A model generated the notes under the pieces. The model was given only the letters and a program-made list of their open reading frames with translations, ran no database searches and had not been told where the DNA came from. A program made the position numbers and the translations under genes. This document shows positions 247-44,625 of a DNA stretch of 48,315 nt, piece by piece. The stretch covers positions 1 to 48,315 of the IMG/VR virus record IMGVR_UViG_3300043465_000269; one strand, given 5' to 3'. Numbering within the stretch: the first letter of the stretch is position 1; each line of letters begins with the position of its first letter. The stretch is from a virus.

Positions 247-312
247 TAGATAATGCCTGCAAGTCTGTTTTTCAATGTTTTATTTTGCATAGCTGCTATG
301 CATTTGGCGCAT
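247..312 (-). promoter_or_regulatory. Early-type promoter P1 with upstream 4-N7-4 dyad
   Basis: On the minus strand the -35 TTGAAA (270-275) and -10 TATCTA (247-252) are 17 bp apart, placing the start near 240. The dyad ATGC-N7-GCAT (298-312) is centred near -65. A second palindrome, GCATAGC-T-GCTATGC, lies at 287-301. Three other promoters in the window (4637, 4937, 35431) share this architecture at identical spacing. Confidence 0.75.
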
Positions 313-343
313 AACAAAACCCCGAGAGTTTCCTCATCGGGGT
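313..343 (-). terminator. Rho-independent terminator with GAAA tetraloop
   Basis: Read on the minus strand, CCCCGA-T-GAG closes on CTC-TCGGGG with a GAAA tetraloop and one bulged base, followed by TTTTGTTAT. It ends leftward transcription from the methyltransferase, tRNA and micro-ORF region before promoter P1 restarts it. Confidence 0.85.
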
Positions 344-372
344 TCTTTAAGAATCTAAGTCTGTAACAAGAC

Positions 373-4612: not shown

Positions 4613-4636
4613 AGTGTTCTCCGTCATCATATACTA

Positions 4637-4912: not shown

Positions 4913-4936
4913 AGTAGTTTTCCTTCTCATATACTA

Positions 4937-5003
4937 TAGATAAGTATGACAAGGTCGAATTTCAAGGGTCGCGACCAACAAAAAAGTGCGACAACCTGTC
5001 GCA
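4937..5003 (-). promoter_or_regulatory. Early-type promoter P3 with upstream dyad
   Basis: TTGAAA (4960-4965), 17-bp spacer, TATCTA (4937-4942). The dyad GCGA-N7-TCGC (4988-5002) lies at the same spacing as in the other three promoters, although the half-site bases differ. It extends to TGCGACA-ACC-TGTCGCA. A GGTCGCGACC palindrome is at 4967-4976. Confidence 0.7.
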
Positions 5004-18035: not shown

Positions 18036-18067
18036 TATTTATAGCACGTTTTGGTTGGTGGTGTCAA
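18036..18067 (-). promoter_or_regulatory. Promoter of hsp20: TTGACA-N18-TATAAA overlapping late-type TATAAATA
   Basis: -35 at 18062-18067, -10 at 18038-18043; TATAAATA occupies 18036-18043 and would also serve as a gp55-dependent late promoter. The fibre gene's TGA stop (18064-18066) lies inside the -35 box. Confidence 0.65.
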
Positions 18068-35163: not shown

Positions 35164-35424
35164 TTAACCGATGTAGACAAAAAGGGTTGCTCGGCTATAC
35201 AATTGCTTATAAGTTGCAATATGCATGTTATCATGCTTGTTATACATTTTCTTGTATAACTTGAAAGGCTGTTCGTTTCCGTAACAGGTTTCGATCATAT
35301 TAGGAAAATCAGGATCATTTGATACAGCACTAAGGTCGACGTGGAAAACGTTCGGCTTGCTTTCATAAACGATATGGGTTACGAGATGGGAATTGTCAAG
35401 TCTGAGGGGTTCTGAATTTGTCAT
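35164..35424 (-). CDS. Hypothetical protein (86 aa), probably leaderless
   Basis: Starts MTNSEPLRLDNSHLVTHIVY. No family is recognised; basic and Tyr-rich C-terminus (MYNKHDNMHIATYKQLYSRA). The predicted transcription start of promoter P4 is at 35424, the A of the ATG, and no internal ATG with a ribosome site follows soon after. It is the fourth gene driven by the early-type promoter family. Confidence 0.55.
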   Translation of the reverse strand: MTNSEPLRLDNSHLVTHIVYESKPNVFHVDLSAVSNDPDFPNMIETCYGNEQPFKLYKKMYNKHDNMHIATYKQLYSRATLFVYIG

Positions 35425-35430
35425 GTACTA

Positions 35431-35496
35431 TATATAAGTACGGCAACCCTCTTTTTCAAGAGTGGTTGCCGCATAGCTGGTATGTGTTCAATGCAT
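35431..35496 (-). promoter_or_regulatory. Early-type promoter P4 with upstream dyad
   Basis: TTGAAA (35454-35459), 17-bp spacer, TATATA (35431-35436). Dyad ATGT-N7-GCAT at 35482-35496 has the same spacing as in P1-P3. GCATAGCTGGTATGT at 35471-35485 matches the second palindrome of P1 at 12 of 15 or more positions, again at the same distance. Confidence 0.75.
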
Positions 35497-35531: not shown

Positions 35532-36443
35532 CTATAAACCATTGTAATTGTTGATCAATTTTAGTCCATAGTTGTTAACTTTTGGCAGTTTTGAAAGATC
35601 AACTCCTGGTTTTAATCTCAGCTTATTTTCCTTAAACTTTGAATAGTCCACATAATGATGCCAACGACCATACTTCCAAACCATTTGAGCAACATCTGGA
35701 TGCATATCAACTAGCATCTGAGACTTATTCACAGTACCAGTTGCATTCAATTGGCCATCACGCCATTTGCTCTTGTCTAGCTCACCTTCAGCATGGTAGA
35801 ATTCAGAAGTGTTTCCACCCTTAACAGTTTGCGTTGCGGCTTTACCCTGCATCCATATATTGAACTGAATCGTGCAATCACCATCTTTAAGAACATTGAG
35901 GCAGATATCAGTATCTTCGTTATAACGTCCACGCCATCTATGTTTACAATCATTGGAAATGAGTAGACAAGAATAGATACGTGTGTTTATCACAAAAGGT
36001 GGATACTTCTGATTGGGTGCAATAAAGAACCGATACTGAAAACCTGAGATAGGAACATTCTCAAAACGATCAACAAAATCTTCGGCAGCTTTGAAACATA
36101 CTCCAGAACCTACTCGAATTCTTTCGTTCTTATGAAGTCGATAGAAATCTGAAATGTTATCGTCTAATACCCAATGCTTCTCAGCTCCTATTGAAATAGC
36201 ATGATCCCAACACCAATTACGAGCCCGACCAGGGCCGTCACCGTGGTTGCTGAAAGGGGCAACAAGCAGAGTAACATAATCCCTAATATTGAAATTATCA
36301 AGGGCAGCTTCATAAGAACTTTCATCTTGTGGCTCTATCGCTATGTAATGTGGAACTTTCATACGCGCGAGTGAACGCGAAGTAAACATGCTTTCATGTC
36401 TACCTTTAGATATGATATAAACAGGATTTTTAGGGTTAGTCAT
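35532..36443 (-). CDS. TAGT-like glycosyltransferase (TET/JBP-associated type)
   Basis: 303 aa. PVYIISKGRHESMFTSRSLA, then PHYIAIEPQDESSY, GDGPGRARNWCWDH (71-81) and KHWVLDDNISDFYRL (93-97 DDN). This set, with the ARNW and LDDN motifs, is what I know from the TET/JBP-associated glycosyltransferases of phages, proposed to glycosylate hydroxymethylated bases. No TET/JBP enzyme is in this window. Overlaps the next upstream GT-like gene by 8 nt. A glycan substrate remains possible. Confidence 0.65.
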   Translation of the reverse strand: MTNPKNPVYIISKGRHESMFTSRSLARMKVPHYIAIEPQDESSYEAALDNFNIRDYVTLLVAPFSNHGDGPGRARNWCWDHAISIGAEKHWVLDDNISDFYRLHKNERIRVGSGVCFKAAEDFVDRFENVPISGFQYRFFIAPNQKYPPFVINTRIYSCLLISNDCKHRWRGRYNEDTDICLNVLKDGDCTIQFNIWMQGKAATQTVKGGNTSEFYHAEGELDKSKWRDGQLNATGTVNKSQMLVDMHPDVAQMVWKYGRWHHYVDYSKFKENKLRLKPGVDLSKLPKVNNYGLKLINNYNGL

Positions 36444-44106: not shown

Positions 44107-44625
44107 CTAAAGACGTTGAACTTCGAAATAATCATATGAGAATGCCATGTCCAAAGTGATAGTTTGTTCCGCAGTTTGTGTGGTATCAAAGATTAGCTGA
44201 CCCATAGATGTAGGGTGTACATTGTAAAACTTGATTCTCATTAATGCTATATTAGAGTTCGTATTGATGGTTAGAATGCCATCATAGTACTTGCTGAATG
44301 GAATACCTTTACGTTTTCCATATTCTTCATACGTTGTTGGCTTTGTTAACGATTTTAGCCATTCAAGAGTTTCTTCCCATACCCGTAGGTCTTCATCAAC
44401 TAGAACAGACATAGACAGATCACTCCAACGTAGAGTATCTCCGTGTCTTTTAGTGACTGAAAATGGTGTAGGAACTTCCACAGCGGAAGTTGAAACGTCA
44501 GGTAAATTTACAGTCTGACAGAAGTATTTGGCAAAAGGAAGATCAGGAATAACAAATGAATACTTCGTAGGTTGAAGCAAGTTGCTATTTTCTGGTATTC
44601 TTGTAATGAGTGTTTCTTTTGACAT
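44107..44625 (-). CDS. Tail-tube-fold protein (gp3 or gp19 homologue)
   Basis: 172 aa. LLQPTKYSFVIPDLPFAKYF, LPDVSTSAVEVPTPFS, and LVDEDLRVWEETLEWLKSL match the tail-tube family; SYDYFEVQRL ends it. In T4-like cyanophages the gene after 23 and before uvsY is gp3, the tail terminator; T4 gp19 (tail tube) is built on the same fold. Position argues for gp3, but the fold alone does not separate them. Late promoter and AGAGG site upstream. Confidence 0.75.
   Translation of the reverse strand: MSKETLITRIPENSNLLQPTKYSFVIPDLPFAKYFCQTVNLPDVSTSAVEVPTPFSVTKRHGDTLRWSDLSMSVLVDEDLRVWEETLEWLKSLTKPTTYEEYGKRKGIPFSKYYDGILTINTNSNIALMRIKFYNVHPTSMGQLIFDTTQTAEQTITLDMAFSYDYFEVQRL

Follow-up and report, generated by a model that had tools for sequence, protein, structure and literature searches.

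Three of the four promoters of one sequence family in a T4-like phage fragment, P1, P2 and P4, carry an array of three half-sites, ATGC-N7-GCAT-N7-ATGC, spaced 11 bp apart and ending 11 bp before the -35 box. The array is conserved in related phages at a helically phased distance from the -35, matches the box recognized by VtlR/LsrB, a LysR-type master regulator conserved in Alphaproteobacteria, is associated with LysR genes in bacterial genomes, and recurs in unrelated phages. From these sequence comparisons we consider it probable that a host regulator of the VtlR/LsrB type acts at the array of P1, P2 and P4, recruiting RNA polymerase and activating early genes. What we infer in this proposal is that VtlR/LsrB binds, that it activates and does not repress, that the genes are early, and that the host is an alphaproteobacterium.

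The window, by which we mean the whole stretch of DNA analyzed, is a linear virus record of 48,315 bases, a fragment of the genome of a T4-like myovirus. Proteins similar to gp23, gp22, gp43, gp41 and gp46 are encoded on its minus strand, and six tRNAs are present. The DNA polymerase is 48-51% identical to those of cyanophages and slightly less so, 43-47%, to those of the SAR11 phage Pelagibacter HTVC008M, the Sinorhizobium phages phiM12 and phiN3 and the Caulobacter phage Cr30; these values are so close that the phage's own relationships do not reveal its host. The array motif is the sole feature that points to an alphaproteobacterial host. Matches of gp23 to cyanophages had first suggested a cyanobacterial regulator, which was rejected: no cyanobacterium appeared among the bacterial matches listed, and the cyanophages tested lacked the array.

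Exactly four sites in the window match TTGAAA-N17-TATNTA, all on the minus strand, as the earlier note had claimed. Dinucleotide shuffles gave an expectation of 0.05 such sites, and none of 100 shuffles reached four. The core of P1 (247-275) consists of a -35 TTGAAA at 275-270 and, after N17, a -10 TATCTA at 252-247, with the inferred +1 at 240. The same boxes, again separated by N17, occupy 4665-4660 and 4642-4637 in P2 (4637-4665; inferred +1 at 4630) and 4965-4960 and 4942-4937 in P3 (4937-4965; predicted +1 at 4930). P4 (35431-35459) has TTGAAA at 35459-35454, N17 and TATATA at 35436-35431, with the inferred +1 at 35424. T4 late promoters have TATAAATA at -10 and no -35, whereas P1-P4 combine TATCTA or TATATA with a -35.

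On the minus strand P1 reads ATGC-GCCAAAT-GCAT-AGCAGCT-ATGC, then 11 bp, then TTGAAA. The half-sites of this predicted operator (287-312), at 312-309, 301-298 and 290-287, agree with the array at all 12 half-site bases. The predicted operators of P2 (4677-4702, minus strand; ATGC at 4702-4699, GCAT at 4691-4688 and TTGC at 4680-4677) and P4 (35471-35496, minus strand; ATGC at 35496-35493, ACAT at 35485-35482 and ATGC at 35474-35471) have the same N7 spacers and agree at 11 of 12. Just beyond the P1 operator lies the intrinsic terminator of the upstream unit (316-346, minus strand), with a fold of -20 kcal/mol (z -4.2) and then a T-rich tail. The earlier note had described 4-N7-4 dyads beginning 23 bp beyond the -35; the arms are where it placed them, but in P1, P2 and P4 each dyad is two of the three half-sites of a larger element. 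A second palindrome that it reported in P1 and P4, GCATAGC-N-GCTATGC, is perfect in P1 (7 of 7 pairs) and imperfect in P4 (5 of 7), and is not a separate element but the pair formed by half-sites 2 and 3. P4 also contains an 8-bp inverted repeat, CGGCAACC/GGTTGCCG, at 35441-35471, which encloses the -35 and touches the last half-site. In a different group of viruses (L007, L016, L077 and others) the -35 of the same TTGAAA-N17-TATATATAGTA core also lies inside an inverted repeat, but there is no array.

P3 is the exception, with no operator upstream. Its minus strand there reads TGCGAC-AGGTT-GTCGCA and then CTTTTTT, the intrinsic terminator of the upstream unit (4981-5003; stem TGCGAC/GTCGCA at 5003-4987); the stem is predicted by folding, although its energy is not exceptional (z -0.5). 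The GCGA/TCGC dyad once counted as a fourth operator belongs to this hairpin and was rejected as an operator, having a stem plus T run and no ATGC half-sites; the upstream region matches 7 of 12 half-site bases, at an arbitrary offset. The "four identical placements" of the earlier note are therefore three and one coincidence. Relatives nevertheless bring the count to about 33 of 34, P3 being the sole promoter lacking the array among 34 non-redundant promoters. Since P3 shares the core, the core may work alone; P3 would either function without the array or be controlled differently.

To obtain the 34 promoters, IMG/VR was scanned with the extended core, which returned many related contigs, and whole records were then fetched; promoters were counted as non-redundant if at least 13 of their 65 upstream bases differed. 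When the upstream sequences of the window and its relatives were aligned, as had been proposed, the array was retained with at least 10 of 12 half-site bases in 31 of the 34 promoters, against 0.9% of shuffled upstream sequences. At least 11 bases are kept in 26 promoters (0.12% of shuffles) and all 12 in 11 (none of 6,800 shuffles). The distance from the end of the array to the -35 is 11 bp in 26 promoters and 12 bp in 2. Four others have 21 bp, and L239, partly judged by eye, adds one more at this distance, with a second spacer 1 bp short. Because the jump in register is exactly 10 bp, the array stays on its helix face. An information profile of the related promoters indicates that the half-sites are fixed and the bases between them variable, so that common descent of the promoter cassettes does not explain the array. 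A search with the array only also recovered promoters that keep the register but have a different core, such as TTGACT-N17-TATATT in L132; this supports ordinary sigma70 recognition. BLAST comparison of the consensus T4-like promoter with phage records yielded chance matches only.

The T-N11-A form at about -65, which the earlier note had recognized, holds across the family: among the register-11 promoters, T is found at column -36 in 26 of 26 and A at column -24 in 25 of 26. The array thus has the interrupted dyad of a LysR-type site, centered near -65, and, closer to the -35 on the same face of the helix, another pair of half-sites that is weaker. The third half-site follows 11 bp further on in nearly all promoters. 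A fourth is degenerate (RCYC) in the T4-like copies and a full GCAT in pelagiphages.

The published VtlR box is GCAT-N3-TG-N3-T; gel shifts (EMSA) were obtained on abcR1, atu1667 and vrsA, and mutation of the box abolishes vrsA (PMC7486931). In the abcR1 promoter of S. meliloti the LsrB box lies at -61 to -49, under a tandem T-N11-A; LsrB shifts this promoter in gels, and activity falls more than 22-fold without the box (PMC8844928). No LsrB effect on S. meliloti abcR was seen under the conditions of PMC7486931, contrary to PMC8844928. With TTGAAA taken as -35 to -30, the central phage box also spans -61 to -49, likewise in a sigma70 promoter with an N17 spacer. Its profile, GCAT-A.C-(A/T)G-N-TA-T, agrees with the published box, the center base being A or T because the phage box is palindromic there. 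The abcR1 (ar15) promoter, which VtlR/LsrB activates (PMC7486931, PMC8844928), therefore resembles the phage promoters in having GCAT-N3-(T/A)G-N3-T at -61 to -49, a tandem T-N11-A, 11 bp to the -35, N17 and a -10 of the CATATC/TATCTA type.

We searched about 85,000 bacterial and archaeal species genomes for the pattern ATGC-N7-GCATA-N-C-W-G-N-TATGC. The exact pattern occurs in 109 stretches, and among the matches listed 52 of 80 are alphaproteobacterial by title, from Brucella/Ochrobactrum, Rhodobacteraceae, Hyphomicrobiales, Rhodospirillales and Pelagibacteraceae. Of the 16 LysR genes in these bacterial stretches, 14 are no more than 300 bp from the site. At six of them the site is on the same strand 11-297 bp past the stop codon, and after it comes a short stretch that looks transcribed, with CCTCCC motifs and a terminator; four of these LysR proteins that were compared share 44-62% identity. 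In three stretches (L247, L314 and L339) trxB (Pyr_redox_2) precedes the LysR gene, and the resulting order, trxB-LysR-site-sRNA, is the lsrB-abcR arrangement. The earlier guess at a host LysR-type regulator is strongly supported, and can be made more specific, by this association with LysR genes and with the trxB-lsrB-abcR order, as well as by the match of box and position to VtlR/LsrB.

The VtlR/LsrB orthologue of Agrobacterium, 55% identical to the L314 protein, is followed by CTGC-N7-GCAT-N7-ATGC, 11 bp and TTGTTC-N17-CATATC. A match to Rfam ar15 (AbcR; 118 bits) starts at the predicted +1, which places the GCAT at -61, as in the phage. Brucella keeps this plan but with 12 bp to the -35, and the abcR-like promoters of Rhodobacterales use a register of 21-22 bp. 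The phage registers of 11, 12 and 21 bp are thus those of host abcR promoters. The host system drives sRNAs and DUF1127 small proteins from few places per genome, whereas in the phages the array is repeated ahead of several protein genes. An orthologue with 47% identity was found in two of three genomes searched from Pelagibacteraceae, the probable hosts of pelagiphages, and in two Pelagibacteraceae no array was present within 420 bp of the LysR gene.

Several bacterial arrays stand in other settings. In Pelagibacteraceae (L253:2565-2590, L262 and L322) the neighbor of the exact array is not the LysR gene but one for glyoxalase I, as identified in L253 and L262. An exact array in Agrobacterium albertimagni (L271:3461-3578) is just upstream of a sul1 RNA on the same strand, making this RNA a possible new VtlR target. 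Rhodobacteraceae (L311:2898-2934, L338 and L350) have arrays with a DUF6280 gene on one side and elongation factor P on the other, these genes being identified in L311; the arrays of L311 and L350 have four half-sites. In Actinobacteria (L265, L270 and L290; Streptomyces, Sciscionella) the LysR genes at the array belong to another subfamily and have start codons that overlap it, which suggests autoregulation through the same half-site.

Among viruses in IMG/VR the N7 pattern was found in at least 120 stretches, as against 20 for a control with N8 spacing, so that a chance pattern is disfavored. Of 85 unique viral cases, 28 have their best -35/-10 pair at an offset of 11 bp from the array, the next commonest offset accounting for 6, a proportion implying that some viral matches are due to chance or work differently. 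Where the T4-like core is lacking (60 viral cases), TTG occurs most often at offset 11. Array-bearing contigs belong to phages with T7-like RNA polymerases, T4-like phages and phages with DNA polymerase A. One exact array, of four half-sites, lies near the genome end in each of the cultured Pelagibacter phages HTVC031P, HTVC142P and HTVC168P; beyond it HTVC031P has ATGACA-N17-TATAGT, and a -35 and -10 are less clear in the other two. Six of the nine T7-like pelagiphages tested lack the array, and T7 has none. With up to two mismatches allowed it is also absent from T4, Syn33, S-SRM01, phiM12, phiN3, phiM9, Cr30 and HTVC008M, and we therefore rejected the idea that it is general to T4-like phages or to all phages of Alphaproteobacteria. 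The Sinorhizobium phages phiM12, phiN3 and phiM9, which have no good copy, infect a species with proven LsrB.

Because its presumed early promoters carry a VtlR/LsrB site at the same position, it is probable that the window phage starts infection with the help of its host's activator, as some cultured SAR11 phages probably do. P1, P2 and P4 would be sigma70-type promoters for host RNA polymerase whose -35 and -10 boxes are non-consensus. The half-sites, spaced by one helical turn and optionally joined by a fourth against the -35, would seat a VtlR/LsrB tetramer on -72 to -47; this tetramer would recruit RNA polymerase and switch on the phage early genes, as at abcR1.

It is unlikely that the array instead binds another host LysR paralogue with the same half-site, which might repress or might act as a sensor gating infection. 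The T-N11-A geometry is common to LysR regulators, in bacteria that include Actinobacteria the array adjoins LysR genes from other subfamilies (L265, L270, L290, L277), and host LysR proteins can act on prophages, as OxyR does at the Pf4 excisionase promoter, xisF4 (PMC12395586). However, box, position and register match VtlR/LsrB targets in detail, the adjacent LysR genes in Alphaproteobacteria are the trxB-linked orthologue, and a site used repeatedly ahead of weak promoters is more in keeping with an activator than with a repressor. Recognition by a phage-encoded protein, such as a viral middle-gene activator, with the likeness to the host box a matter of convergence or old capture, seems very improbable. 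Many phage genes have no known family and none of the T4-like relatives, all fragments, exceeds 110 kb, but no LysR helix-turn-helix domain (PF00126) was found in 15 T4-like records and five cultured phages, nor any LysR protein in the complete, array-bearing pelagiphages HTVC031P, HTVC142P and HTVC168P. A phage-encoded LysR protein was rejected on these grounds, and they support the earlier view that the regulator is host-encoded. One viral protein would, moreover, have to serve throughout unrelated phages and bacterial abcR promoters. We give hardly any weight to a functionless array kept by common ancestry of duplicated cassettes: core and leader are nearly identical in several copies, some of which are clearly paralogous, but the half-sites persist while surrounding bases are scrambled, shifts are exactly 10 bp, and other cores and unrelated phages keep the register. 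That the dyads are RNA hairpins, either terminators or leader structures, is true of P3 with its hairpin plus T run and extremely unlikely for the others, since the P4 strand folds no better than shuffles (z +0.5), the P1 operator follows a separate terminator, and the array lies upstream of the -35 at a distance set by DNA helical phase.

The extended site of E. coli OxyR, as Toledano is said to have described it in 1994, is ATAG-N7-CTAT-N7-ATAG-N7-CTAT. It shares with the phage array a geometry of alternating half-sites 11 bp apart, four of them for a LysR tetramer, but its half-site letters differ, and in the T4-like phage arrays three half-sites are clear and the fourth is degenerate. The mom promoter of phage Mu is likewise under host OxyR. 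Mu mom and the Pf4 promoter resemble our proposal in that a host LysR-type regulator controls a phage promoter; unlike the series of early promoters in the lytic T4-like phage of the window, they are single sites that serve temperate or late functions, prophage induction or repression. T4 early promoters are sigma70 promoters, read by unmodified host RNA polymerase and present in many copies per genome. They share sigma type and multiplicity with those of the window, but T4, with no array matches, relies on strong extended consensus sequences. We found no description of host LysR-type activation of lytic-phage early promoters among the open-licence PMC papers searched.

VtlR/LsrB is thereby named as the likely early-gene switch of a group of uncultured T4-like phages and of cultured phages of SAR11, and the take-off of phage infection would be linked to the redox and metabolic state of the host. 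SAR11 are the most abundant marine bacteria. More tentatively, unrelated lytic phages of Alphaproteobacteria, both T4-like phages and T7-like pelagiphages, may have independently placed their early promoters under this host redox and metabolic regulator, so that infection would start only, or fastest, where the regulator is active; the phages might also titrate VtlR/LsrB away from host AbcR sRNAs. The array extends the VtlR/LsrB site from a box of 13-15 bp to a full 26-37 bp, and its signature may help to assign alphaproteobacterial hosts to phage contigs of unknown origin.

Downstream of the -10, the sequence TAGTATRTGA is conserved as strongly as the core in P1-P4 and their relatives. In most of these promoters the predicted +1 falls on the A of an ATG (240, 4630, 4930 and 35424 in the window), usually in frame with a second start that bears a Shine-Dalgarno sequence; at P4 there is no other start nearby. 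This looks like a leaderless or dual-start mRNA. The first genes behind P2 (4187-4630, minus strand, 147 amino acids) and P4 (35164-35424, minus strand, 86 amino acids), whose ATGs coincide with the inferred +1, belong to no Pfam or PHROG family. Near P4, at 35532-36443, is a gene for a TET-associated glycosyltransferase (Pfam PF20691, 145 bits), which suggests modified phage DNA. Late-promoter-like NATAAATA octamers occur on the minus strand at 18043, 26080, 38250 and 44649, the last of them just ahead of an ORF at 44107-44625.
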